Shown: positions 9,169-55,276 of the stretch, piece by piece | How the letters are laid out: every line of letters starts with the position of its first letter | Numbering within the stretch: the stretch's first letter is position 1 | NCBI RefSeq assembly: GCF_021390495.1 | Contig: NZ_JAJEJP010000001.1 | Location: 62,001-126,000 of the forward strand | Source of the DNA: Paraburkholderia sp. ZP32-5 | GTDB taxonomy: Bacteria > Pseudomonadota > Gammaproteobacteria > Burkholderiales > Burkholderiaceae | Reading direction: 5' to 3' | DNA length: 64,000 bases | The notes under the pieces: model-generated | Seen by the model: the letters and a program-made list of their open reading frames with translations, nothing else | Told to the model about the DNA's origin: nothing | Database searches by the model: none | Translations under genes and position numbers: made by a program

Positions 9169-10185
9169 ATGCTGGATCGAGAAATCATGCAGGTCTTGCC
9201 CGATGCAGGTAAGGGCGAGGAGCCAATCTCTACTCCCGACGTACATGGCAAACTTTGCGTCAGATTGCTCGATCCGCCGGTCGTAAAGACCGTGCAGCGA
9301 CGGCTCGAAGAGATGCTCAGGGATTCGCTGGTCGTCATGGAGCAGCGCGGGCGCGCCAAGTATTGGCGAAAGGTTGCAGGCGCAAGCGGTCTCGCTGCGA
9401 AGGCTGCAGGCACGATGACGTACGACGAGGCGCTGGCCTTGCAGACGTTGCGCCGTTTTTCCACGTGGCGAATTCCGACGCTGGTGGCCGAAACGCTCTC
9501 GCCGCTGTTCGATGTGGCCGCCAAACGTCTTGCGACAGTCAACAACCAGCACGAGCGGCGCTACCGTAAATGGATCGACAAGATCGAAGTCGAAACGGGC
9601 AGCTTCGCGTTGCAATACCCTGAAGTCGATTCCGATATCTTCGCAATGGTTTCGCAGGCGCTTTTTAACGAGCAGAAACTCGAGATTGTTTATCAGCCAC
9701 GCACGAAGGTCGACAACACGGAAGCGAAGGTTGTTCATCCGCTCGGGCTTGTGGAGGTGGGTGGATTGGTCTATCTCGTGGCAGCGATGCCGCGTCATCC
9801 CAATCCGGCGATGTACCGGCTCGACCGTCTCGTCCGCGCAACCATGTTGCCTGAGTCGTTTGCACAACCGCGCGGGTTCAGACTCTCGGAGTACGTGCGG
9901 GAGCAGCGTCACTTCGATTTCATGGTTGAGGGCGTGATAGATCTGAGGCTGCGTTTCAGGAATGGGGCAGGGAACCATCTACTCGAGGCGCCGCTATCCG
10001 ATGATCAGCAGGTCAGACAGGGCGACGACACGCTGGAGGTGCGCGGCACTGTGCTGTTGAGCCAGCGCTTACGGTGGTGGTTGCGGGCGTTTGGGCCGAA
10101 CGTCGAGGTGCTGGCGCCGGAGCGGTTGCGCTCCGAGTTGGCAGCAGAAGCGATGGCTCTGGCCGGGATTTATGCAGGCAGGTGA
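9169..10185 (+). CDS. WYL-domain transcriptional regulator
   Basis: A 338-residue regulator. The N-terminal ~90 residues form a winged helix (VKTVQRRLEEMLRDSLVVMEQRGRAKYWR). The middle holds the WYL fold: ALFNEQKLEIVYQPR, then VVHPLGLVEVGGLVYLVA and PAMYRLDRLVRATML. The C-terminal segment (LLSQRLRWWLRAFGPNVEVLAP) matches the WYL C-terminal extension. WYL proteins of the BrxR/CapW type repress phage-defence operons and sense nucleic acids or nucleotides. This one is the first gene of a rightward run that includes the dynamin pair and the helicase operon, so it is a likely controller. ATG 9169 is the first credible start. Confidence 0.85.
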   Translation: MLDREIMQVLPDAGKGEEPISTPDVHGKLCVRLLDPPVVKTVQRRLEEMLRDSLVVMEQRGRAKYWRKVAGASGLAAKAAGTMTYDEALALQTLRRFSTWRIPTLVAETLSPLFDVAAKRLATVNNQHERRYRKWIDKIEVETGSFALQYPEVDSDIFAMVSQALFNEQKLEIVYQPRTKVDNTEAKVVHPLGLVEVGGLVYLVAAMPRHPNPAMYRLDRLVRATMLPESFAQPRGFRLSEYVREQRHFDFMVEGVIDLRLRFRNGAGNHLLEAPLSDDQQVRQGDDTLEVRGTVLLSQRLRWWLRAFGPNVEVLAPERLRSELAAEAMALAGIYAGR

Positions 10186-10891: not shown

Positions 10892-11242
10892 ATGTCTATT
10901 GAGTTGGCGCGATATACCCCGGACGAATTGACAGACACGAAGCTGAGCAGTCTGATCGATGCCAAAGCCTCGTTTCAGATCGTCAACATCCAGCACATGA
11001 GCTCAGTGGTCGAAAAAGTCGAAGGCCGGATCGAAAAGGCGGGCTTGAGCTGTCGCGTGTACACGGAGTACCGGTCGGCGGTCATGGCGGGATCAGTGCT
11101 CGGTGGAATTACAGCAATTGCCGGCGTGGCATCGGCCGCCGCGATTGCAGCGCACAACCTCGCGACGTGGGACCCGGACTATGAGTTGGGGAAGAACCAG
11201 ATCAAGGGGCATCTGAGCATCGTCTACAAGAAAGAAAAATAA
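10892..11242 (+). CDS. Small protein with central membrane segment, upstream of dynamin pair
   Basis: A 116-residue protein. The N-terminal half has charged helices (DELTDTKLSSLIDAKASFQ). A hydrophobic segment follows at about residues 65-90 (AVMAGSVLGGITAIAGVASAAAIAAH), likely one or two passes, then a short polar tail ending in YKKEK. ATG 10892 follows an AAGGCAGCC leader. It lies 140 bases before the first dynamin gene on the same strand and may be an accessory of that system, for example a membrane recruiter. The family is not recognised and the role is inferred from context. Confidence 0.65.
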   Translation: MSIELARYTPDELTDTKLSSLIDAKASFQIVNIQHMSSVVEKVEGRIEKAGLSCRVYTEYRSAVMAGSVLGGITAIAGVASAAAIAAHNLATWDPDYELGKNQIKGHLSIVYKKEK

Positions 11243-11382: not shown

Positions 11383-13584
11383 ATGCAACGAACCGACGAT
11401 ACATCATCGAACGGCCTGCACCAGGCCGTATTGACCGAAATCGACCATTTGCTCAGGCAACTCGAGCTCGATACGACGGACCCTCGCGTTGCGAGCACGA
11501 TGGAACAGGTAGCCGATCTCGTCGCTCCGATTCATGACGATCTTGCGAAGCGAATAGAGGCCTTGCAACAGCACGCGCGCTGGGACACGTTCACCATCGC
11601 GTTTTATGGTGAAACGAACGCGGGCAAGTCGACGATCATCGAAACGCTGCGTATCCTGCTGCAGGAGCGAACCAAGGCCGAGGCGCGCTCCGCGTTCCGT
11701 GCGAAGGAGGCGGAGTTCGGCATCAGCGAAGCTGCCCTGGCGGCGCTTGCGCAGTCAATCGAGGCGAGCCGCGCGGCGCTCGACGCGAAGCGCACGGACG
11801 CGGCCGGACGTAACGGGCAACTCGATGCGGAGCACGATGCACTTCAGCAGGAACTGAATCACCTGCGCCTCGCTCTCGAGGCGAAGAAACAGAGCGCGTC
11901 GTTCTGGCAAAAGCTCGTGTGGCTGTTCATCAAACCACCGGAACAACTCCAACTCGTGCGTATCGGGCAGCAACAACGGGAACTTGCGGCGGCGCATGCG
12001 ACGGAGCGCGCGAGGCTCGATACCCAGCTCGACAGCGCGCAAACCGCGCTTCAATCGCTTGAATCACAGCAGGCGAAGGCGCATGCGATGCTCGACAGCC
12101 TCGCGCCGTTCGCCGATGGCCAGATCATCGGCACGGGGCGCTCCGACTATACGCTCGACACGCATGGCTACGAATTCCATGCGAACGGCCAGCGCTTCGA
12201 ACTGCTCGATGTGCCTGGCATCGAGGGGAAAGAAGCGCGTGTGATGGACAGCATTCTCGGCGCGGTGAAGGCCGCACACGCGGTGTTCTACGTGACCGGC
12301 AAGCCCTCGGCACCACAGACCGGCGACAAGGACGGGCAAGGCACGCTCGAAAAAATTCGTGAGCATCTCGGCGATCAAACCGAGGTCTGGTCGATCTTCA
12401 ACAAGCGCATCACGAATCCGATCCAGCTCGAAAAAGGCGATCTGCTGAATCAGGGCGAACGTGCGAGCCTCGCGGTGCTCGACGAGACGATGCGCGAGCA
12501 TCTGGGCGACAACTATCAGCGCTACATCGCTCTGAGCGCTCAGCCCGCCTTTCTCGCGGCGGCCGACTGTCTCGTGCCGGCTTCGGATACCGCGCGCAGC
12601 CGCGAGAAGTTCCTCGCGAAAGCGACGCCCGCCGATATGCTCGCGAGGTCGGGTTTCCAGCCGTTTGTCGACTGGCTGAGCGGCGGCATGGTCGCCGATA
12701 GCGATGCGCGCATTCGCGCCGCGAACGTCAACAAGGTGCGCAGTGCCGTGAAGACGGCAGCCGGCAAGATCGCGCTGATCCAGCGCGAGAAGGTCGGGCC
12801 GCTTGCAGAGGACGTGCAGCGCGACTGGGCACACGTCAGTCAGCAGCTCGCACTCGCGGTAGGCGCTCTCGCCCCCGCGTTGCAGACACGCGCCGATTCG
12901 GCGATTCGAAAGTTCGAGACGCGTGTTCGCGAGCAGATCTACACGCGAATCGAGGGTGGTATCGATAACGATGACGTGAAGGATGCCTTGGGCGCGGCGA
13001 TGACGCGCGAGCAGGCAGAGTTTGAATCGGCGCTACCGTCCCAAATGGAGGCGGAACTCGAGCGATTCCAGCAGGACGTGAGCGATACGCTCGAACGCTT
13101 TCAGCGACGCGTTGCTGAACTCCAGGACGTGTATCGATCGATCGGCACACCGACGCTCGGTGGCTTCGAATTGAATATGACGTTCGACAGCGGCATCAAG
13201 TACGTGTCGCTCATTGCGGCGCTCGCCGGGGGGCTCATGATGATCTGGAATCCCGCCGGCTGGGTGACGCTTGCGATTGGCGGCGTGACGCTTGTCGTGA
13301 GTATCGCCAAAGCACTGTGGGGGCTCGTCGACAGCGATTACAAGAAATCGCAGCAGCGCAAAGCGGTGAACCAGAACATTGGTCGCGTCGTCGGCCGCCT
13401 GGAGGACGCGATGAAAAGCAATTGCGACAAGGTGATGGAGAGCGTCACCGCGAGCATTGAAGAGATCGCGGCGGAAGTCGAGCGATCGGTCGATCAGGTT
13501 GCGCAAGTCAATTCCGCTCTGATCCGGGTCAGCGCGAAGCTCACGCATTTTTCTACAACGATGTCCGAAACAGAGGTAGTGTAA
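11383..13584 (+). CDS. Dynamin-like GTPase, LeoBC-like (Eleos-type defence)
   Basis: A 733-residue dynamin-family GTPase. G1 P-loop GETNAGKST lies at residues about 76-84. A long coiled-coil insertion (about 90-240) follows. G3 is DVPGIEG near residue 276 and G4 is SIFNKRI near 335. Toward the C-terminus a hydrophobic hairpin (residues about 605-650: SLIAALAGGLMMIWNPAGWVTLAIGG) resembles the membrane paddle of bacterial dynamin-like proteins. It ends in helices. Its stop overlaps the next ATG by one base. The pair of large dynamins, the second about the size I recall for LeoA, fits the Eleos antiphage system. The family is secure, the system name is inference. Confidence 0.82.
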   Translation: MQRTDDTSSNGLHQAVLTEIDHLLRQLELDTTDPRVASTMEQVADLVAPIHDDLAKRIEALQQHARWDTFTIAFYGETNAGKSTIIETLRILLQERTKAEARSAFRAKEAEFGISEAALAALAQSIEASRAALDAKRTDAAGRNGQLDAEHDALQQELNHLRLALEAKKQSASFWQKLVWLFIKPPEQLQLVRIGQQQRELAAAHATERARLDTQLDSAQTALQSLESQQAKAHAMLDSLAPFADGQIIGTGRSDYTLDTHGYEFHANGQRFELLDVPGIEGKEARVMDSILGAVKAAHAVFYVTGKPSAPQTGDKDGQGTLEKIREHLGDQTEVWSIFNKRITNPIQLEKGDLLNQGERASLAVLDETMREHLGDNYQRYIALSAQPAFLAAADCLVPASDTARSREKFLAKATPADMLARSGFQPFVDWLSGGMVADSDARIRAANVNKVRSAVKTAAGKIALIQREKVGPLAEDVQRDWAHVSQQLALAVGALAPALQTRADSAIRKFETRVREQIYTRIEGGIDNDDVKDALGAAMTREQAEFESALPSQMEAELERFQQDVSDTLERFQRRVAELQDVYRSIGTPTLGGFELNMTFDSGIKYVSLIAALAGGLMMIWNPAGWVTLAIGGVTLVVSIAKALWGLVDSDYKKSQQRKAVNQNIGRVVGRLEDAMKSNCDKVMESVTASIEEIAAEVERSVDQVAQVNSALIRVSAKLTHFSTTMSETEVV

Positions 13585-15293
13585 TGGAACAGACACTCAA
13601 CTCTTTCAAGGGGCGGCAAGCGGAAACGTTGAAGGTGCTCAACGACCTTCAGGCGTTCCTGACACAAGGCGAAACGTTTGGTATTGATGCCGATCCGAAC
13701 GTCAAGGCGAAGCTCGACAGCGCGATCCGCAGCATGGAAGAGGAGAAGCTGCGCGTCGTGCTGATCGGCGGTTTCTCCGAGGGCAAGACAGCAATCGCGG
13801 CCGCGTGGCTCGAACGGCTCGACAAGTCGACGATGAAGATCAGCCACGAGGAATCGTCGAATGCGGTGACGGTCTACGAGGCGGGACCCGATTGCCTGCT
13901 GATCGACACGCCGGGCCTGTTCGGCTTCAAGGAGCAGTTCGACGCACAAACCAACACGCTTGAAAAGTACAAGGAACTCACGCGCAAGTATGTGAGCGAG
14001 GCGCATCTCGTGGTCTACGTGATGGACCCGACCAACCCGATCAAGGAGAGCCATCGAGACGATCTCACATGGCTCTTCCGCTCGCTGAACCTGCTGCCGC
14101 GCACGGTGTTCGTGCTGAGCCGCTTCGACGCGGTCGCGGATGTCGAAGACGAGCGCGAATATGCGAAGCTTTTCGCGATCAAGAAGGACAACGTGGCGGG
14201 CCGCCTGCGCGATCTGATCTCGCTGACCGACGCGGAGACCGCGGAACTCGCCGTGGTAGCCGTCGCGGCAGATCCCTTCGAGATGGGCACCGAATACTGG
14301 CTCGCGGACCTCGAGCGCTTCCGCACACTCTCGCGCATCGGGCTGCTCCAGCGCGCGACATCGGAAAAGGTTTCCGCGGCGGGAGGAATAGCGGCGGTTG
14401 TCGACGAGACGCGGCGCAGTATCGTGCGCGACGTGCTCGGCAAGCAGTTGCCGATCGCCGTCCATAACGACGACCGCATCGCGCAGGAGGTAAGCCGTCT
14501 CGAAACGATGAGTAACCAGTTGCGAAAGCAAATGGTTACATCCGATGCACGCATCAACGACGTGCGCATCGGCTTGCGCAGTTTCGTGACGGACTTCTTC
14601 ACCGATCTGATCCTTCAGGTGCGTGGACAGTCGCTCGATACGTTCACGGAATTCTTCGAGCGCAACATCGGATCGGACGGCGTGGTTTTGAATGCGAATC
14701 TGCAAAACGCGTTCGATCAGCAGATGCGCTCGGTGAAATTCGAGGTCAGCAAAATGGCCGTCGGCTTCGATGCGGAAGTGAATCACTTCAATACCAGCGT
14801 ACGGGCATTTGGCAAGCAGGGCATCGATTACGTTGTCAAAGGTGGATTGATTAACAACACGTCAGTGCTTGCGGCGCGCGATGGCATAGTGGGCGCCGCG
14901 AAGGTCGTGGGCCTCGATCTTGGCAAGATGCTCAAGTTCAAGCCGTGGGGTGCTGTCAATCTGGCGAAGGGACTCAATGGACTATTGTCGGCGCTCGGAC
15001 TTGCACTCGAAATCTGGGGCTCGGTGGAGGAGATGAGACGCGAGCAGGCATTTCGCGAAATGATCGGCAAGATGGTCGAAAACTTCGAGATGCAGCGCAA
15101 AGAATTGCTTGGTTTGATCGAGGGGCCGCACTTCGAGGATCAGTTCTTCCCGGAACTCGTCGAGTTGCGTGCAAACGTAGCGGCGGTAGCGCAAAGCGTT
15201 GCGGCGGGACGCGAGAAGCGCGAGCAGTTCCATCGCTGGCGCGATCGTGGGGAAGCGATCGACGCGGAGTTCCGGATGATCGATGCCGCCTGA
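13584..15293 (+). CDS. Dynamin-like GTPase, LeoA-like (Eleos-type defence)
   Basis: A 569-residue second GTPase, about the length I recall for E. coli LeoA. G1 is GGFSEGKT at residues about 62-69, G3 DTPGLFG near 109, and G4 LSRFD near 178. The helical C-terminal half includes an amphipathic stretch (NLAKGLNGLLSALGLALEIWG) that may contact membrane. Its ATG overlaps the preceding stop (TAATG), so the two proteins are made in coupled amounts. Bacterial dynamin pairs can form hetero-assemblies on membranes. In Eleos systems the pair protects against phage, possibly by acting on the membrane during infection. Here a small membrane protein precedes them and a nuclease/helicase operon follows 210 bases later. 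Confidence 0.82.
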   Translation: MEQTLNSFKGRQAETLKVLNDLQAFLTQGETFGIDADPNVKAKLDSAIRSMEEEKLRVVLIGGFSEGKTAIAAAWLERLDKSTMKISHEESSNAVTVYEAGPDCLLIDTPGLFGFKEQFDAQTNTLEKYKELTRKYVSEAHLVVYVMDPTNPIKESHRDDLTWLFRSLNLLPRTVFVLSRFDAVADVEDEREYAKLFAIKKDNVAGRLRDLISLTDAETAELAVVAVAADPFEMGTEYWLADLERFRTLSRIGLLQRATSEKVSAAGGIAAVVDETRRSIVRDVLGKQLPIAVHNDDRIAQEVSRLETMSNQLRKQMVTSDARINDVRIGLRSFVTDFFTDLILQVRGQSLDTFTEFFERNIGSDGVVLNANLQNAFDQQMRSVKFEVSKMAVGFDAEVNHFNTSVRAFGKQGIDYVVKGGLINNTSVLAARDGIVGAAKVVGLDLGKMLKFKPWGAVNLAKGLNGLLSALGLALEIWGSVEEMRREQAFREMIGKMVENFEMQRKELLGLIEGPHFEDQFFPELVELRANVAAVAQSVAAGREKREQFHRWRDRGEAIDAEFRMIDAA

Positions 15294-15502: not shown

Positions 15503-16891
15503 GTGACAACAATGATGTGGGGGCTGCTCGGCCCCGATACGTTGGGAGTGGAGCGGCGCACCCGCACACTCAGGTTGGGCCGTGCCGTAAGGTCGTTTAA
15601 CGACCTGGCCGTGCCGGGCCTGGGCGGCGTGTGGCTTGGCAAGCATCTATTCCTTGCTACGTTGGGTGTCTGCGTTGCTCAACAGACGCGCAGTCGACAC
15701 AAACAGGTGACCAACATCGAGGTCGCCAATGCGATCGAGGCGTTGGCATGCTGGTATGGCCTGCGCAGTATCAGTGATTCCAGGCCGGATCCCCGTCTGC
15801 GAGGCTTCCGCAAGCTGGCGGGCAAAGATGACGTCTCGTTTGCGAAGGTAAGGGTGGCGGGGTTTTATGTCTCGCAGCCGATGCGTATGGCGATCGTTCA
15901 GGCACTCCCGTCGCTGGGGCTTGTCGATGCTGGCAGTAGCCGCTTCAACACGTTTTCCTGCACACCAGCTGGTGAGGCGCTGATTGCTGCGCAGACTGCG
16001 CCGTACAACCCTTGTTACTTCACGCGCGATGTGGTCGACCATCTGGTTGACTGGGTGAAAGGCGAGGTCAAGCAGCCCGCGGCGAAAGTGGCTGCGGCAT
16101 TATCGCCGCTGACAGCGTTGTCCGGCGATGCACGCGCCGTCGTGTTCGAGCGGCTACGTCTGGGCGGCTCGCATGAAAGTGCGCAGCAGACGCAACGTCG
16201 ACGAGCGGCACTGACGTGGGTCGAATCGCTGCGCAAGAAAAGTGCGCTCAATTTTGCGTGGTCGGATGTACCGGATGAGATCACAGACCTGGGACATTGG
16301 CAGGATCTGCAGGCCGGTGGATTGTTTTTTCAGACCCGCGATGCCGCGCTTGCGGTGCTGGATGCGCTTGAGCAGCACATCGGAGAAGCGGGCCATGGCT
16401 CGCGCTACTCGCTGCATAGCGATACGCCGGTTGGGGTGACGTCACGCCTTGAAGTGCTGCGCCGTATCGCGCACGACTATTTGAATCATGATCAACAGCG
16501 TTCCGCGACTGCCGATCCGTCAGGTCTCGAGCACGCCGACGCTGCGGCCGACGCCGCAGCGTTTTGCCGCGAGTGTATCGCGGCGAACGACAGCGAAGTA
16601 TTGCGCAAACTGGTTGAGCGCGATGAACGGGTGCTGTATCTGAAGGGTAGCGATGTCGTGCCGGGGCCGGCCTTCGATGGAGGGCGTAACGCGCGGGCCG
16701 AGGATGAAGAAGGTGGCGCGGAAGCCGAGCTAAATGAAGAGGGCTCTCGCTCGACAGCTTTGAACCCTTCCGCGGAATGGCCCGACGGTCTCTCATACCG
16801 GGTTCGCAATCTGTTTCTGTTGAATGCCGATCTGCTTGGCAAACTTGACGACTGGCGCGATCTGGCAGCCGTCAATGGAGAAAGTCTGTGA
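15503..16891 (+). CDS. Uncharacterised 462-aa protein, first gene of PLD/helicase operon
   Basis: I do not recognise this protein. It starts GTG (15503) after a GGGGTAAAT leader; ATG 15512 is an alternative. It appears mostly helical. Residues 45-110 (VWLGKHLFLATLGVCVAQQ, VTNIEVANAIEALACWYGL) are the most hydrophobic. Residues 110-190 contain a possible winged-helix-like segment (RMAIVQALPSLGLVDAG, FSCTPAGEALIAAQ). An acidic low-complexity linker (AEDEEGGAEAELNEEGS) lies near residues 396-412, before a C-terminal helix. No enzyme motif is visible. Its stop overlaps the start of the phospholipase-D-fold gene (GTGA), so it is part of one operon and probably supplies specificity or assembly. Confidence 0.75.
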   Translation: MTTMMWGLLGPDTLGVERRTRTLRLGRAVRSFNDLAVPGLGGVWLGKHLFLATLGVCVAQQTRSRHKQVTNIEVANAIEALACWYGLRSISDSRPDPRLRGFRKLAGKDDVSFAKVRVAGFYVSQPMRMAIVQALPSLGLVDAGSSRFNTFSCTPAGEALIAAQTAPYNPCYFTRDVVDHLVDWVKGEVKQPAAKVAAALSPLTALSGDARAVVFERLRLGGSHESAQQTQRRRAALTWVESLRKKSALNFAWSDVPDEITDLGHWQDLQAGGLFFQTRDAALAVLDALEQHIGEAGHGSRYSLHSDTPVGVTSRLEVLRRIAHDYLNHDQQRSATADPSGLEHADAAADAAAFCRECIAANDSEVLRKLVERDERVLYLKGSDVVPGPAFDGGRNARAEDEEGGAEAELNEEGSRSTALNPSAEWPDGLSYRVRNLFLLNADLLGKLDDWRDLAAVNGESL

Positions 16892-18912
16892 GCAAGCGCA
16901 TCCACAAATCCAACGGCGTGTCCCTTGTCCAGCATTTCGATCCACCCACCGGCTATGTAGGTGCCTTTGGCTGGCTTTGCGGATATTCAGCCGACGCCGA
17001 TTTTCTGGACATGGCGGCCGAGCGATTCACTGGACAAGCCCGGGCACAGCGAGCACATGCCGGGCGGATTGCACTCGCGGTGATGCTCGATCCAGGCAAT
17101 CCGCTGATAGCGCCGATCGATGCGCCCGGCGTGGCAAGCCTGTCGATGTACGAAGCCAAGCAGAAGACGTTCGAGTTGCTGCACGCAAAGGTGGCGCTGC
17201 TGGGATTTCGTGATCCACATGACCCGGCGCGCTGGGTCGTGCGTCTGCTCGTCTCGACCGGCAACTGGACCCGGGAGACGCTCGAAGAGACTCTCGATCT
17301 GGTGTGGCGCGTCGATGTGGCCAGCGACGCGCTTGAAGCGCCAGACGCACAGACGCAACTGAGTTGCAGTGATATCCACGCAGCGCACGACCTTCTTGTG
17401 TATCTGGCAGATTACTTCGACCAGCGCTTGCTCACCCTGAGCGGCGGAGACTACCCGAGCGATACAAACCAATGGCGAAACCAGTTGGACCGTTGGCTGG
17501 ATCGAATTGCCGAATGCAAACGGGGGCACCCGCGCTTCTTCGACAACCGTAACCATTCTCTGCTTGCACAGTTGGCGAAGTGCATCGAGCGTGCAGGGAT
17601 CACCGCGGCCTGCCACTATCTCGCGATGGGCTCGGGCTTCTACGAAACGGCAAAAAGCGAGAGCGCGGTTCCCAAGGTGCTGCGCAGGATCGTCGAGACG
17701 TTGAAGGAAAAAGGGCGATTGACCAGACAGTGCGAGATCGACGTGTTCGTCAATCCGCTTGGCTGTCAGGCGGTCGCGCAATCGGTGAACGAGCTGGCTG
17801 CCGAAGGCTTCGTCGTGCGGCCGGCGCACCCGCCCGCGATGCTGTTTCCGGACGGCGATGCCCGCAAGCTGCACGCGAAATTTCTGTTCGCCGCGAACAA
17901 GCGGGAAGGCTTCAACAATTGCACCAGCGCCTGGATCTATCTCGGCTCCGGCAACCTGACCGGACCGGGGTTCGACACCAAGGCGGCCTTGGGTCGCGGC
18001 AATCTCGAAGCGGGAGTCGTGTTCGCTCCCGAGGGCCTGTGCTGGTATCAGAAGGCCGGTGTCGCGCCTGCCCAGGTCGTCACGAACCTGTTGCCGATGC
18101 AATGGAGTGCCCAATACGACAGCGACACCGGGTTGACGGCCGGGGGCGATATGCCGGTACGCCCGCAGGTGTCGATTGCGTCGCCCGTCGCATGGGTGAC
18201 GTGGATCGAACCGGTCGCTGCAACGCGATCTAATGGCCGCCTCAGTCTACCCGAGCCGCTGTCGACCACCAGTGGGTTCGCGGTGTTAGATGAGGCTGGC
18301 CAATCATGCGTCATGCTCGATGGCGATTTCCTGTGGCGAGGCGAGCGTCCGCGTCAGGTGAAAGTCCGCTGGACCGGAGAAACGGGTGCAAGGCACGAAA
18401 CCTTGCTGCCCGTGCTGGACGAATTCGGACGGGTCGCCGCGACGGGACTGTCATCGCTCGATCTCGACGAGGTGGCGTGGCAACTCGCGCAATTTCCATC
18501 TACGCCAGACGATGAGGGCGTTGACCGGGAAGGCATACCCGACGATCCAGTTACCGGCGATCAGCAGCCGCTACCGAGGTCTGCGCCGATGCGCGGAGAT
18601 TACGCGATCCGGCAGATGATGGAATTGGTCGAGAACGTCGCGGCGCGACAGACCGCGGTGGTCGAAGCCGACTGGTTCGTGTGGTGTAACCGTCTGGAGC
18701 AGACGCTGATACGCGCGAGTAACAGTGTCGGCGTGGAGACCTTTATCGAGCTGGAAATCAATCCATTGAGTCCGCTGCGCGCTGTGCCGTTTCGTCCGGC
18801 ATTCGCGGAGCTCGACAACTCAGAGGCGGGCGAGCGGTATCTCGAAGCGCTGCGGCGCATTGCGAGTGCCTGGCGGGTAGATGGCCTGAAAGGTCTCGAG
18901 GTGACACGATGA
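16888..18912 (+). CDS. Phospholipase-D-fold protein with two HKD-like motifs (putative nuclease)
   Basis: A 674-residue protein with two copies of the HKD half-site. The first is LHAKVALLGF with His 99, followed by LLVSTGNWT. The second is LHAKFLFAA with His 329, followed by IYLGSGNLTGPGF. The pattern H-x-K...(G/T)(S/G)xN is that of the PLD superfamily, in which two half-sites form one active site cleaving phosphodiesters. With a SNF2-type helicase as its partner, DNA cleavage is the most likely activity. The C-terminal 250 residues are beta-rich and end in a helical segment. It starts at GTG 16888, overlapping the previous stop, and its own stop overlaps the helicase ATG. Confidence 0.8.
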   Translation: MSKRIHKSNGVSLVQHFDPPTGYVGAFGWLCGYSADADFLDMAAERFTGQARAQRAHAGRIALAVMLDPGNPLIAPIDAPGVASLSMYEAKQKTFELLHAKVALLGFRDPHDPARWVVRLLVSTGNWTRETLEETLDLVWRVDVASDALEAPDAQTQLSCSDIHAAHDLLVYLADYFDQRLLTLSGGDYPSDTNQWRNQLDRWLDRIAECKRGHPRFFDNRNHSLLAQLAKCIERAGITAACHYLAMGSGFYETAKSESAVPKVLRRIVETLKEKGRLTRQCEIDVFVNPLGCQAVAQSVNELAAEGFVVRPAHPPAMLFPDGDARKLHAKFLFAANKREGFNNCTSAWIYLGSGNLTGPGFDTKAALGRGNLEAGVVFAPEGLCWYQKAGVAPAQVVTNLLPMQWSAQYDSDTGLTAGGDMPVRPQVSIASPVAWVTWIEPVAATRSNGRLSLPEPLSTTSGFAVLDEAGQSCVMLDGDFLWRGERPRQVKVRWTGETGARHETLLPVLDEFGRVAATGLSSLDLDEVAWQLAQFPSTPDDEGVDREGIPDDPVTGDQQPLPRSAPMRGDYAIRQMMELVENVAARQTAVVEADWFVWCNRLEQTLIRASNSVGVETFIELEINPLSPLRAVPFRPAFAELDNSEAGERYLEALRRIASAWRVDGLKGLEVTR

Positions 18913-21743
18913 ATCAGCGTTTTGAAGGTTGGGCTGCTGTCGGCGAGCGTTTGTGTGATGTCGCCAATAAACCGCAGGAAGTGGGTGCAACGCAGCTGAA
19001 CGATGGTCAACGGGCGAGCCTACGCGCGCTCGCGAAGCGGTTGCCGCGCAATGGGGTCGTGATAGCCGATGAGGTCGGCATGGGCAAGACCCGGATCGCT
19101 ACCGAGCTGACGCGCTGCGTTACCGAATGCGGTGGTCGAGTGGCGATTCTGGTGCCGCCCGGGCTCGGTTTTCAATGGCAAGCCGAATTGCGCGCGAGCG
19201 GCGCGTTCGCGCCACCGCTGCTGCGTAGCGTCTGGCAATACCTCGAAGCGTGGAGCGATGGCGATCACCGGCAGGCGAAGCACGCCAAACCTGCAGTGCA
19301 GGTCGAGGCGGTCGACGGTGCGCCGGTTTCGTGGTTCGATCAACCGGTAGTCATGCTGTCGCATGCGTTCACTAACTGGAAGCTTGGTGCGAAGAGCGCG
19401 CCGTGGCGATGGGCGCTCCTGCCGGAAATCTATGCTGCGTGGCGCAAGGACACGACCAACCGCGTGCCGCGCGGATATTTCGACGACGACAACCGCGACA
19501 AGCTCGGTGACGAGTGGGTCCAACGAGCGGCGCAAAGCATCGTGCAGATGGCTGGCGCGCTTCCCTTGGACAGCCCTGCACGGGTGCAGCTCGACGAACT
19601 GGTGAAGCGCACTCCGTGGCCCGGCGCGCTCGATGCGGGCGCATATGGCAGCGGCGAGGCACTGCGCATCTGTCTCGAACAGGCGGTTGGTTTGGGGCTG
19701 GGCATGTTCGATCTGGTTATCGTCGACGAAGCCCACAAGAGCCGTGGCAGCGACAGCGGCTTGACGCGGTTGCTCGAGCATGTCGTGCTGACGCATCACT
19801 CAGGTCGCAGACTGGCAATGACCGCTACACCGGTCGAACTCGATATCTCGCAATGGGAGCAGATCCTGACGCGGATTGGCGCGGACGCGGCGCTCGTGAA
19901 AGGAGTGATTGCCGACTACGCGCGTGCTGTCGAGCGCATCCGACAGTGCGTGAGCAATACCGACGCCCGCGTGTCGTACGCGGTGGCCGCGCAGCGATTC
20001 GAAACCGCGTTGTCGCAGTGGTTGCTGCGGCGCGACAAGCGTGAGGATCAACTAGTGCAGAAGTTTGCGCGGGCGACCGGCGAATCCATGCATGCGTATC
20101 GTCAAGCAGAAGACATTCTGATCGAGACCACGGATCTCCCCATGCGCTGGCGGCGCGCGGTGTGCGCCGCGGAGGCGTTGTCGCTGGTGACCCTCGGTGC
20201 CACCGAGATGGAAGCGAAGCGATTGCGTTTGACGCTCGGCAACGGTCACGGAATCGCGACGCTGCTCGACGAGGGGCTGCGCGATCAGGACGACGATCGC
20301 AAGCAGAACACGATTGACGCGGTTGCGAGTGCTGACGAAGTCGCCGCCGGTATCGTCGCTGCAGAAAAAGAGCCCGATACCGATCCGAAGCGCCGCGCGC
20401 GTACCGAATGGTGGATGAGCGTGATGCGCAACGCACTCGATCGCAGTGACCGGGATCTGTTCGAGCATCCTGCAGTCGTCGCGGCGGTTCATGCGATTGA
20501 GCAGTCGACCCGCGCTGGCGAGAAGGTGCTGGTGTTCGGCCGTTTCACAGTGCCGCTGCAGAAGCTGGTGGAGCTGCTCAATGCGCGGCAGATGCTTCTC
20601 TGCATCGAGCAGGAACAGCCTTGGCCGCAATCGAAGGTGCCCGACGGTGGCTGGGAGGCCGTCGAGGCTGCGCATCGGCAACTGTATCCGTCGAGCGTGC
20701 TCGATCGTGAGTCGTTGAATCGCGCGCTGGACGCCCAGTACAGCAAACTGGAGAGCCGTCGCGAGGTGTTTCGCCAACGGCTGATCGAACGGATCGAAGC
20801 CGGTTTCAAGGAGGAAGGGTCGGCGCCAAGGTTGATGCGTCTGTTTGACGCCTTCCGTCAGTCTGCTGATGCGTGGACTGTAGCTGGCACCTTGGGCAAA
20901 CCTGGCCCGTTGGCAATCGTCGCAAGGGCACTTCAGGAGTTGCTGTCACCAGAGGCCGCGCCATTGGACTTCGCACGCGCTTTCATTGAACTGATCGATG
21001 CCACCAGTGACCGCGATGCGGGCTCGAGTGATGCCGGCGTCGACAGCGAAGGGCCTGCCGACGATCTTGATGCCGGCGACGGCCTCGCCGCTGCCGCGCA
21101 ATGGCAGATTCTCGAAAAGCGCCTAACGGATGAATACAGTCGCCCTGAAGGCGGTTTTGCGCGACTGATGTACGGAAAGACAGAACCCGATACCCGGCGT
21201 CTTTTGCAGCTCGCGTTCAATCGTGCAAACAGCTATCCGCGTGTGCTCGTCGCACAATCACTAGTGGGTCGTGAAGGTCTGAATCTGCACAAGGCATGCC
21301 GCACCGTCGTGCTGCTTCATCCGGAGTGGAATCCAGGCGTGGTCGAGCAGCAGATCGGCCGCGTCGACCGGCTCGGCAGTCTATGGGAACAGCAACTACA
21401 GCAGGCGATTCTCGATGGGGTGTCGGGCAAGACGTTTCCACGTATTCGCGTGCGCCCGGTTGTATTTCGTGGCACCTACGACGAAAAAAATTGGGAAGTG
21501 CTGCGCACGCGTTGGGACGACTTGCGCGCGCAATTGCACGGTGTCGTGATCTCGCCGCACATCGCGGCAGATTATCCTGATCTCGCGGAAGTAATCGAGG
21601 ATATTAACCGCGGTGCGCCGAACTTTTCGCCACTCGCGGCAGAGCAGGGTGGTGATGTGGATGGTGCTACAGAGCCTGAAGCACGGCGAGACCGGCGTCC
21701 TGATCACGATGACTCGCCGGAAACGGAGATGATTGGGCAATAA
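18909..21743 (+). CDS. SNF2/HepA-like superfamily 2 helicase
   Basis: A 944-residue helicase/translocase. Motif I is DEVGMGKT at residues 54-61, motif Ia LVPPGLGFQWQAEL, motif II DEAH at 273-276, motif III MTATP near 304. The C-terminal half has motif V GREGLNLHKA and motif VI QQIGRVDRLGS (about 787-825). A long insertion separates the two RecA lobes (about 390-650). The set matches DEAD/SNF2-like proteins of the RapA/HepA branch and DISARM-type helicases, which translocate on double-stranded DNA. The ATG overlaps the PLD-gene stop (ATGA), so the three genes form one coupled operon. Such a translocase paired with an HKD nuclease suggests a DNA-targeting defence system. Confidence 0.85.
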   Translation: MNQRFEGWAAVGERLCDVANKPQEVGATQLNDGQRASLRALAKRLPRNGVVIADEVGMGKTRIATELTRCVTECGGRVAILVPPGLGFQWQAELRASGAFAPPLLRSVWQYLEAWSDGDHRQAKHAKPAVQVEAVDGAPVSWFDQPVVMLSHAFTNWKLGAKSAPWRWALLPEIYAAWRKDTTNRVPRGYFDDDNRDKLGDEWVQRAAQSIVQMAGALPLDSPARVQLDELVKRTPWPGALDAGAYGSGEALRICLEQAVGLGLGMFDLVIVDEAHKSRGSDSGLTRLLEHVVLTHHSGRRLAMTATPVELDISQWEQILTRIGADAALVKGVIADYARAVERIRQCVSNTDARVSYAVAAQRFETALSQWLLRRDKREDQLVQKFARATGESMHAYRQAEDILIETTDLPMRWRRAVCAAEALSLVTLGATEMEAKRLRLTLGNGHGIATLLDEGLRDQDDDRKQNTIDAVASADEVAAGIVAAEKEPDTDPKRRARTEWWMSVMRNALDRSDRDLFEHPAVVAAVHAIEQSTRAGEKVLVFGRFTVPLQKLVELLNARQMLLCIEQEQPWPQSKVPDGGWEAVEAAHRQLYPSSVLDRESLNRALDAQYSKLESRREVFRQRLIERIEAGFKEEGSAPRLMRLFDAFRQSADAWTVAGTLGKPGPLAIVARALQELLSPEAAPLDFARAFIELIDATSDRDAGSSDAGVDSEGPADDLDAGDGLAAAAQWQILEKRLTDEYSRPEGGFARLMYGKTEPDTRRLLQLAFNRANSYPRVLVAQSLVGREGLNLHKACRTVVLLHPEWNPGVVEQQIGRVDRLGSLWEQQLQQAILDGVSGKTFPRIRVRPVVFRGTYDEKNWEVLRTRWDDLRAQLHGVVISPHIAADYPDLAEVIEDINRGAPNFSPLAAEQGGDVDGATEPEARRDRRPDHDDSPETEMIGQ

Positions 21744-22206: not shown

Positions 22207-22278
22207 TGTCCGATGCGTCGACCGAAGGGCATGGGGCCCAGCGAAAGGCCATCGGATATTTCATCGCAGGAGAAAACG

Positions 22279-23076
22279 ATGGCTTCCTTTCACTTCAACA
22301 CTCAACAGCCCAATCAATCGACCTTCCGCGAAGACCTTGTCGCGTGGCTTTGCACGCTCAAAGCGCCGAGGGAATGGATTGGATTGACCGCAATTACTTG
22401 GGCTCGAACTTTCTCTCCTGAATTGGCCGTCTTGTTCGCCGCGGCCGGATACGGGGAGCTTAGTCAGCATCTCAACCGACACAAGCTGATGGCGTTTTGC
22501 ATGCGCTCTGACGTTCCGCTTGAATTTCGAGTAGCGGCCGTTATGGCTTGGGGACGCTCAAATGCGCGGAACCCCCAAAACAACCGGAATCTGTGGGCCT
22601 CCATCGAAAATATTACGCCGCTGCTCAAGCTCCTTCCCGAACTCACTCGCAAACAGGCGTTCGCCGAATTCCAACGACTCGTTGCTTCCGGAGTTCTTCG
22701 AGGCATGCGGGCTTCATTCTTCACCAAGCTAATGTTCTTCTTCGGCTGCCCAAACGCCTACATTCTTGATCAATGGATGGGAAAGGCTATGTTGGCACTG
22801 CGGACCGCGAACTGGCATCCGACAATGGATGGCGGGCTGGCGTTTGTCGGAGGGGACGCCAATTGCGTTCGCTTGGGATATGGAGGCACCAGCATCGCGC
22901 TTAACATGTCAGGGGACGATTATGAATCGTATTGCTTGAGCGTCGAGGCATTGATTAAGCCCTTGGGACGCATCGACGGTGCAGATGTCGAATGTTGGCT
23001 GTTTTCTGATTCGAGGTCTGAATGGCGGTCGTTCCTCAAGCGACTTGACTGGAAGCTCAAGGCAAAACAGCAGTAA
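22279..23076 (+). CDS. OGG-fold (8-oxoguanine-glycosylase-like) protein
   Basis: A 265-residue cytoplasmic protein. It has no signal sequence. The central region (FAEFQRLVASGVLRGMRASFFTKLMFFFGCPNAYILDQWMGKAM) resembles the helical part of OGG-like glycosylase-fold proteins, with a hairpin-like turn and a conserved LDQW segment in place of a catalytic loop. Residues 60-120 are also helical. Start ATG 22279 follows a good ribosome-binding site (GCAGGAGAAAACG); the frame is open upstream to 22213 without one. Proteins of this type are often seen in defence islands, with undetermined roles. The assignment is from memory of the family and is moderate. Confidence 0.5.
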   Translation: MASFHFNTQQPNQSTFREDLVAWLCTLKAPREWIGLTAITWARTFSPELAVLFAAAGYGELSQHLNRHKLMAFCMRSDVPLEFRVAAVMAWGRSNARNPQNNRNLWASIENITPLLKLLPELTRKQAFAEFQRLVASGVLRGMRASFFTKLMFFFGCPNAYILDQWMGKAMLALRTANWHPTMDGGLAFVGGDANCVRLGYGGTSIALNMSGDDYESYCLSVEALIKPLGRIDGADVECWLFSDSRSEWRSFLKRLDWKLKAKQQ

Positions 23077-23285: not shown

Positions 23286-24107
23286 CTATCCGGTGCCAAT
23301 CACTCTATCAATCTGCCGCAGCACATCGAGCGCACCGCCGTGCAGACCGATGGCGCGCTCGCGCGACACCTTCGAGTCGTCGGGATTGATGCGGATAAAG
23401 AGCCCACCGCTGCGCTCGCCAAAGCGGCGTACTGTCGGAATGGTCCTCCCCGCGCCGATTTCGATGATCACAAGTTTGTCGACATCCTGAGTCCACGCAC
23501 GAGCCTGCTCCACGGCGCACTCATACTGCCGACCGAGCCAGTTACCATCGTCAAACATGAGAATATTCGGCCGCGCCAGTCCGCCGCAGGTCGGGCAGCG
23601 CGGTAGCGGGTTGCGCAATCGCGTTGTGGCGTCGTCAACTTCGGGGCTGAAACCATGCGTGCTCCATGTCCTGCCGGTGCAGGTGCCAAGGCATTGCATG
23701 GTATGGATCGAGCCGTGACATTCCGCGACGCGCGACGGAGGGAAACCCGCTTTTTGGAATGCTCCGTCCACATTGCTGGTGTACACAAAGGCACCCGCGG
23801 GACAGATTTTTTCCCATTTCCGCAGAATCTGGAATCCTTCGTGCGGCACGGTCGATCGGTACATCGCGAGCCTGTGACCGTAGAAGCCCCACGCACGCAG
23901 TGGATCGCTGTAAAAGGTATGTGGACTAGCAGCTTCCGCGAAGGAGAGCCCTTCTGCTCGCAGCGCCGGGTAGGCATTCCAGAACCCCTCTTTGCCTCGA
24001 AAATCCGGCAAGCCAGAATCAACACCCATTCCGGCTCCCGCAGTAATAAGCAAACCTTCGGCGTTACCTATCCAGTCTGCCGCCAGTTCTGTTGGCGATA
24101 GTGCCAT
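23286..24107 (-). CDS. Sirtuin (Sir2-family NAD-dependent deacylase)
   Basis: A 273-residue protein with all sirtuin landmarks. These are the NAD-binding GAGMGVDSGLPDFRG (residues 24-38), TSNVD (110-114, the TQNxD equivalent), the catalytic His 131 in ECHGS, and two Cys pairs for structural zinc (C139/C143 and C171/C174). The C-terminal part has the second NAD-contact region (IEIGAGRTIPTVRR). It most probably removes acyl groups from protein lysines using NAD+. An NADase role in defence is possible given the island, but nothing in the sequence distinguishes this. It is leftward and convergent with the OGG-like gene. Confidence 0.85.
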   Translation of the reverse strand: MALSPTELAADWIGNAEGLLITAGAGMGVDSGLPDFRGKEGFWNAYPALRAEGLSFAEAASPHTFYSDPLRAWGFYGHRLAMYRSTVPHEGFQILRKWEKICPAGAFVYTSNVDGAFQKAGFPPSRVAECHGSIHTMQCLGTCTGRTWSTHGFSPEVDDATTRLRNPLPRCPTCGGLARPNILMFDDGNWLGRQYECAVEQARAWTQDVDKLVIIEIGAGRTIPTVRRFGERSGGLFIRINPDDSKVSRERAIGLHGGALDVLRQIDRVIGTG

Positions 24108-26467: not shown

Positions 26468-26697
26468 GCTGCGTGAAGCGAGGTTGCAGGGGCGCCCAGC
26501 AAAGTAACCGGGCTTAGCTTACCGAGCCGCGCCCTTCCTATTAAAAGCAATAGGCATCGGCTTATGTGGATCATGACTTGGCGAGGGGAGGGCAAACATA
26601 GATCGCGCCCGCCGCGTCTACGCTCTTTCTCTGCCGAAAGCGGAAATTCCGCCGACGCCGTGACCACACAAGCGGTTTTGTCATAACGCCAGTCGTC

Positions 26698-27018
26698 GTG
26701 GCTCGCCGAGTCGCGAATCCGGTGCATGGCGCCTACCTGCAAGGGTTGCTGCTTACCGGCGCGCGCCGGGAAGAATGGGTGGGGTTGCCTCACGTTACGC
26801 CGCATGGCCTTCGGCGTTCGTTCGGCACGCGGTCCGAGTGGGTCGAGGTTCCAGTCGGCGTCGTCGCGCAGATTCAGGGGCACAAGCCGTCCGCCATCGC
26901 CGAGAAACACTATCGCCGCCGCCCGCTCGACCTGGCGCGCCTCTGGCATGACCGGATCGAGGCCTGGATGCTTGAGCAGGTGGACATCTCATTTGCCGTC
27001 GATAACTCTATCCACTGA
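26698..27018 (+). pseudogene. Internally deleted second copy of the island integrase
   Basis: The frame carries the integrase catalytic core: GAYLQGLLLTGARREEW, then directly PHVTPHGLRRSFGT, IQGHKPS and EKHYRRR. Compared with the copy at 1061-2428 it lacks everything upstream of residue ~258. It also lacks an in-frame block equal to 1898-2182 of the intact gene (285 bases). The deletion ends at GGTTG/GGTTTG-like microhomology. The remaining DNA is about 95% identical. Without the Arm and core-binding domains it cannot function as an integrase. It marks the end of, or a tandem copy of, the island beginning at 0.9 kb. Confidence 0.9.
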
Positions 27019-51970: not shown

Positions 51971-52058
51971 CGTTAAGGGTTATTCGACGCCTGCCAGCAC
52001 GCGCAGCGGCACCGTCTCATTCCTGCGGCCGAAGGCAGATATCGAATAACCCTTAACG
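51971..52058. repeat. 88-bp element with perfect 17-bp terminal inverted repeats
   Basis: Arms 51971-51987 and 52042-52058 are exact reverse complements (CGTTAAGGGTTATTCGA). The centre carries CTGCC and GGCAG in mirrored positions. No T-tract follows, and no gene lies inside. It resembles a miniature inverted-repeat element or a recombination/integration site rather than a terminator. Confidence 0.75.
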
Positions 52059-54766: not shown

Positions 54767-54850
54767 AGGAAGCAGGAAGCAGGAGGCAGGAGGCAGGAAG
54801 CAGGAAGCAGGAGGCAGGAAGCAGGAAGCAGGAAGCAGGAAGCAGGAAGC
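54767..54850. repeat. Heptanucleotide tandem repeat, 12 copies of AGGARGC
   Basis: Twelve consecutive heptamers (nine AGGAAGC and three AGGAGGC), followed by a degenerate ATGAGGC. It is located about 105 bases upstream of the lipoprotein start, on the other strand relative to it. Copy number is likely to be unstable by slippage. The length of 7 leaves all reading frames open, which generates spurious Cys/Pro-rich open frames. Confidence 0.95.
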
Positions 54851-55276
54851 ATGAGGCGTGGGCGTCTTGCGGATTCGTGGGAACGGTGCGACAGCGTGTG
54901 GGGCATCCCGCATCAGATAGCCATCCGGGTCGCGGGGAATTGTCTGGCCCGTTGAGCATCTGTACCGGGTAGTCGCGCGCCATTGACTCAGCCACTGATC
55001 TGTCGTTGGGTGCGTGATGTTGTGCATCACGTCGGCAATGCCCGTCGTGCCGCCTACTCGGTCCTCCAAACCCCTTTCAAATCTGAATTTCATTTTTTGT
55101 CTATTTGCTTGTTGATTCCATGGCCGGTGTGACGGACAAACGGCCAACCGAGTTGGTCGCGATCAAGGCTGCTTTCGGTTTGAAAAGTAGGTCTGCGGTC
55201 AATCACATGACTAGTGTGAATCGCTCAAACACGTGACTGAGAATCGCGGCTGGGCAGTTCCTCATTAGCGACCGAA
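54851..55276. other. Non-coding stretch before the XRE gene
   Basis: There are no open frames with support, apart from shadows created by the heptamer array. It includes the region before the XRE operator. I see nothing else. Confidence 0.4.

Follow-up and report, generated by a model that had tools for sequence, protein, structure and literature searches.

Judged by sequence, the closest named relative of the locus described here is Azaca, a system of three genes (ZacA-ZacB-ZacC). Further points of comparison are Mokosh II, a PLD-helicase fusion, and DISARM, which comprises DrmA to DrmE and a methyltransferase. In extracts of published work, Azaca and Mokosh are both filed under a PLD-like domain (PMC10952713), and BR type-2 is given as HKD-SNF2 (PMC12839542). 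The locus is a three-gene cassette at positions 15503 to 21743 of a 64,000-nucleotide stretch (the window) of Paraburkholderia sp. ZP32-5, contig NZ_JAJEJP010000001.1, from a genome of 9.09 Mb in four contigs. It encodes a 462-residue protein, here called U462, a PLD-superfamily protein and a SNF2-type helicase, and we consider it reasonably probable that it is an unnamed, restriction-like cassette of three components that acts against invaders much as Azaca does.

The three open reading frames (ORFs) all lie on the plus strand and each overlaps the next by four bases, as the first-pass annotation of this DNA had described. Nine proteins encoded between 9169 and 24107, those of the cassette plus six neighbours, were scanned against Pfam, PADLOC and NCBIfam. 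The features of the cassette are the following.

15503..16891, plus strand: U462, the first protein, 462 amino acids, with a GTG start; predominantly helical and of no known family
15809..15991, plus strand: winged-helix-like element predicted at U462 residues ~103-163, weakly similar to AlwI/N.BspD6I (HHalign, and a weak structural second look)
16888..16891, plus strand: U462/PLD overlap of 4 nucleotides, GTGA
16888..18912, plus strand: PLD-superfamily protein related to ZacB, 674 amino acids, GTG start
17182..17265, plus strand: first HxK...N motif (H99, K101, N126), invariant in 48/48 rows
17872..18009, plus strand: second HxK...N motif (H329, K331, N356) and E374, invariant in 48/48 rows
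18909..18912, plus strand: PLD/SNF2 overlap of 4 nucleotides, ATGA
18909..21743, plus strand: SNF2/RapA-type superfamily 2 (SF2) helicase, 944 amino acids, ATG start
19068..19094, plus strand: helicase motif I (DEVGMGKTR), from a 43-row alignment
19725..19736, plus strand: helicase motif II (DEAH), same alignment
21345..21374, plus strand: helicase motif VI (EQQIGRVDRL), same alignment

Among 8000 candidates scored in a search of some 5.8 billion proteins, 691 are relatives of U462 at E ≤ 0.001. Scanning genome contigs gave 55 loci, 54 of them with a clear U462, whose titles name Burkholderiales and other Proteobacteria as well as Planctomycetota, Acidobacteria and Nitrospirota, the latter three mostly as metagenome bins. 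All three genes were present in the same order and on the same strand in 46 of these 54 loci, a count that includes a few with one gene in pieces (L056, L059 and L060). The contig edge cuts within or just past the cassette in L017, L020, L023, L029 and L043, and L044 and L053 have shortened ORFs near the contig end. Every plasmid record with a PLD relative (7/7) carries U462 upstream and SNF2 downstream of it, including one in which an apparent frameshift merges two frames (L071). Within the genus the PLD protein was matched in 5 of 144 genomes, with U462 alongside in four (G695 was not confirmed), and in a family sample U462 occurred in 3 of 299 genomes, the source genome counted. Occurrence is thus patchy, in plasmid and island settings among others, which speaks for the anti-invader reading.

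Overlaps of four nucleotides recur at 28/50 and 36/46 junctions of the related loci. Pairwise distance matrices of the three proteins, calculated from 40 cassettes, correlate with r of 0.92, 0.90 and 0.91, while 1000 permutations reached at most 0.22. The fixed linkage and this correlation indicate joint inheritance and movement of the three genes, which form a fixed unit in distant bacteria. Decayed copies were also seen: L048 retains only a piece of the PLD gene and no SNF2 gene, and the fifty-fifth locus, L063, only a fragment of U462. On one plasmid (L074) an interruption of about 2.3 kb divides the PLD gene.

The third gene encodes an SF2 helicase of the SNF2/RapA type that contains motifs I, II (DEAH), III, V and VI, near-invariant across 43 aligned rows, in agreement with its earlier designation as SNF2/HepA. 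Its PADLOC matches included PDC-M27C (E 4.8e-20), DrmD (E 1.6e-17) and ZacC (E 2.4e-9). The second protein had been described as a nuclease with two HKD motifs, and this part of the description has to be corrected. In an alignment of 48 rows, which includes the window copy and excludes short or broken copies, the positions of the canonical aspartate are G106 and A336 (G in 41/48 and A in 42/48 rows), and N126 and N356 are invariant; the protein thus belongs to a duplicated HxK...N type. The HKD subtype of the PLD superfamily, with HxKx4D in both halves, was ruled out by the same two residues. We take the duplicated HxK...N motif to be of the Tdp1 type. At E 0.1 the only PADLOC family matched by this protein was ZacB (E 4.3e-8), itself with two HxK...N motifs; the profile score was 39.6, compared with a maximum of 25.8 among shuffles, and 0/100 shuffles reached it. 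The PLD protein is thus homologous to ZacB, and from their conserved active-site residues both enzymes are predicted to be active. Taken as a whole, the earlier description stands for the ORFs, the overlaps and the helicase and fails for the type of PLD motif; it also made no mention of the WYL regulator and the Eleos-type pair that lie upstream.

U462 had been reported to carry no recognisable enzyme motif, and Pfam, PADLOC and NCBIfam indeed gave no family at E 0.1. A Pfam scan at E 5 of the 26 members of a U462 alignment (A1) returned scattered weak matches, each in one member, and no restriction endonuclease domain was found in U462. Its AlphaFold2 model is confident and mostly helical (predicted local distance difference test score 87.4, predicted template modelling score 0.87) and found no match in the PDB. 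The protein varies no more than its partners: median pairwise identity is 0.42 for U462, 0.43 for PLD and 0.45 for SNF2, mean column entropy is 1.87, 1.91 and 1.78 bits, respectively, and U462 blocks 21-60 and 121-140 are conserved nearly as well as the motif blocks of both enzymes. A subunit whose short target sequence differed from host to host would be expected to be hypervariable, and hypervariability was not seen. A diversifying specificity subunit like HsdS is therefore disfavoured, and the earlier suggestion that U462 confers specificity remains plausible in another form, as the reader of a conserved cue.

The earlier statement that no methyltransferase is present was borne out for the nine scanned proteins, the only ORFs of the window scanned for one. 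A methyltransferase motif search of 336 flanking ORFs from 50 related loci flagged three loci. One flagged ORF proved to be a UvrD helicase; real methyltransferases lie in L047, 6.4 kb upstream of the cassette, and in L049, 2.6 kb downstream of it. Flanking methyltransferases are thus exceptional (2/50) and non-adjacent. Together with the absence of hypervariability in U462, the lack of a tightly linked methyltransferase makes a conserved cue more likely than a sequence methylated by the host. The linkage data may also be compatible with protection by an unlinked methyltransferase.

Cleavage by the PLD superfamily is established to proceed without metal through a phosphohistidine intermediate. 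We infer that the three proteins form a complex in which U462 would bind DNA, or some cue associated with DNA that many invaders share, and load the SNF2 motor. The motor would translocate along DNA with ATP, and the paired HxK...N protein would cleave the DNA, probably metal-free via such an intermediate. No methyltransferase would be needed, because the cue would be a conserved feature (DNA ends, a replication structure or a modified base) and not a short sequence found in the host as well. In many cases a WYL regulator may control expression. The core idea of the first-pass annotation, a restriction-like PLD and SNF2 module with a partner that acts without methylation, fits the fixed three-gene unit.

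A more specific origin for U462 appears distinctly doubtful, namely that it descends from a type IIS (AlwI/FokI-like) enzyme, has lost the nuclease and, as a free-standing recognition subunit, directs the SNF2 motor and the Tdp1-like HKN nuclease to a conserved cue other than methylation. Residues 103-163 show a weak profile match to the recognition region at the N-terminus of AlwI-type enzymes (HHalign probability 0.9-6.7%), and extracts of the literature describe DndG, SspB and BrxA as FokI-like winged-helix readers (PMC10853773, PMC12839542). The overall fold of U462 was not matched to the AlwI, N.BspD6I or FokI recognition domains, and a BrxA profile of three sequences did not match it (20/100 shuffles reached the score). 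If this origin were true, a type IIS-derived U462 would lead to a restriction machine that needs no mark on self in order to tolerate it, with swappable partner modules beside it (Eleos, AAA/DUF2779, AddAB-like, NERD-helicase).

Several observations weigh against the interpretation offered here. The AlwI scores of U462 (23.9-30.5) are equalled by controls: reversed ZacA scored 24.4, and single shuffles against other templates reached 34.7 (PLD), 29.5 (WYL) and 27.0 (AAA). Co-inheritance shows shared travel, which does not prove a physical complex. Literature searches found no defence assay of the cassette family. We claim no enrichment of particular neighbours, since a random-gene background was absent.

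The alternative that survives best, although we regard it as unlikely, is that the cassette is a subtype of Azaca, with U462 as a ZacA (DUF6361) that has diverged very far, so that the system already has a name. The order of an unknown helical protein, PLD and SNF2 is that of the Azaca loci L064-L066, the PLD protein is homologous to ZacB, U462 and ZacA are both mainly helical, and by eye they share a D..PG turn close to the N-terminus and a C-terminal Y/F-R...DL helix. However, the PADLOC ZacA model is silent on U462 and on the source genome, and the SNF2 protein scores DrmD and PDC-M27C above ZacC. HHalign comparison of U462 with ZacA was no better than with shuffles, of which 108/150, 75/100 and 70/100 reached the score; with a divergent master, 5/100 did.

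SauUSI provides a functional analogue for a second alternative, a type IV-like modification-dependent restriction in which U462 would read modified bases and the SNF2 and PLD proteins would destroy the DNA. This we also find improbable, although the combination of a PLD protein and an SF2 motor, with no methyltransferase in tight linkage, would suit it, as would a reader as conserved as the enzymes. Against it, none of the known reader domains for modified bases turned up in Pfam scans of U462 (E 0.1) and of the 26 A1 members (E 5).

PLD nucleases of the HKN type, such as BfiI, have been described, and this counts against a Tdp1-like role, in which the PLD protein would act on DNA ends linked to a protein (a terminal protein or a relaxase) and the motor would track to or from the end. 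HKN does replace HKD in both motifs in all 48 rows, but the Tdp1 Pfam match (E 0.007) falls below the cut-off and ZacB has the same motif type, and this role is very unlikely. The surroundings of the cassette in the window are the following.

1031-2428: tyrosine recombinase gene (Pfam)
2359-2961: Zeta-toxin-like P-loop protein, directly after the recombinase gene (Pfam, E 1.9e-11)
9169..10185, plus strand: WYL/WCX-domain regulator; relatives in 17/64 related loci
10892-11242, plus strand: 116-amino-acid ORF, no family in Pfam, PADLOC or NCBIfam; 0/64 related loci
11383..13584, plus strand: LeoBC-like dynamin GTPase (Eleos), PADLOC E 2.1e-151; 0/64 related loci
13584..15293, plus strand: LeoA-like dynamin GTPase (Eleos), PADLOC E 1.1e-165; 0/64 related loci
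22213-23076: OGG-like DNA glycosylase protein, downstream of the cassette (Pfam)
23286-24107: SIR2-family protein, downstream of the cassette (Pfam)
26697-26993: partial copy of the 3' part of the recombinase gene, 89% and 92% over two stretches

The 64 related loci represent 63 distinct ones, as L089 repeats L010. The recombinase gene and its partial copy lie ~24.6-24.9 kb apart and bracket the defence region, the pattern expected of an integrated island. The adjacent LeoBC and LeoA genes that identify Eleos are present and share one base. That the Eleos pair and the cassette make up one larger system under the WYL gene is most improbable: they do share a strand with the WYL gene upstream of all, and in L014 a NERD-helicase gene likewise stands between a WYL gene and U462, but 209 nucleotides separate the end of LeoA from the start of U462 and neither Leo gene occurs in any related locus. 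A WYL relative lies within 75 nucleotides upstream of U462 in 7 of the 17 WYL-bearing loci. Among PADLOC matches for 109 of the 126 nearest flanking ORFs, WYL (11) and IetA (7) lead among the best 25 of 223 families. Some related loci carry a tandem AAA ATPase resembling IetA, as well as a DUF2779 protein. Neighbours of a defence type, which favour the proposed role, thus comprise Eleos, WYL, the IetA-like AAA protein, a GajB-like UvrD and the NERD-helicase. L047 and L063 have relatives of the window's SIR2 gene close to the cassette. On three Rhodobacterales plasmids (L072, L075 and L076) genes for a PD-(D/E)XK nuclease, a UvrD helicase, U462, PLD and SNF2 are contiguous on one strand; we label the first two AddAB-like. 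Elsewhere in the window, at 51971-52058 and 54767-54864, are a 36-nucleotide inverted repeat with a 16-nucleotide loop and an array of roughly 7/14-nucleotide AGGAAGC-type repeats.

Among described systems, DISARM likewise holds a PLD protein and a SNF2 helicase in one locus, and DrmD was matched weakly. The comparison made in the first-pass annotation nevertheless does not hold: DrmA, the DUF1998 protein DrmB and a methyltransferase are absent among the six neighbours scanned, and the NCBIfam DrmD match reaches 92 bits against a cut-off of 610. No BREX-type partners were found among the same neighbours. PLD-helicase fusions (NF042964) also join PLD to an SF2 motor, whereas the cassette has separate genes and U462; the match was 52.6 bits against a cut-off of 1100. 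No description of the cassette appeared among the rows listed by literature text searches; a later name is possible, as the PADLOC version dates from 2023.

This leaves Azaca, to which the match is partial: two components have PADLOC matches to Azaca families, the helicase less good ones than to PDC-M27C and DrmD, and the first gene has none. The outcome that the first-pass annotation had named as refuting it, a match of all three genes to a named system, is in this sense half reached. Both loci have three genes in the same order, with a ZacB-type PLD protein second and a SNF2-type helicase third, an order and general make-up shared by the three genuine Azaca loci L064-L066. In one of them (L064:77-3912) a Helicase_C protein and an MZB (MrfA Zn-binding) protein, a DISARM/MrfAB-like pair, lie beside the true Azaca genes. 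ZacA was found in 3/299 phylum genomes. The helicase box, compared by eye, is DEAH in the cassette and DEFQ in ZacC of L064, L065 and L066, and U462 cannot be related to ZacA/DUF6361 by profile; the cassette is for this latter reason not filed as Azaca. On present evidence, by analogy, it would work like Azaca. If it defends, a widely spread and apparently unnamed PLD/SNF2 system is added, together with the testable question of how a methylation-free motor-nuclease machine spares its own chromosome. The Azaca layout of reader, HKN-type PLD nuclease and SNF2 motor may then be a reusable chassis in which the first subunit can be swapped.

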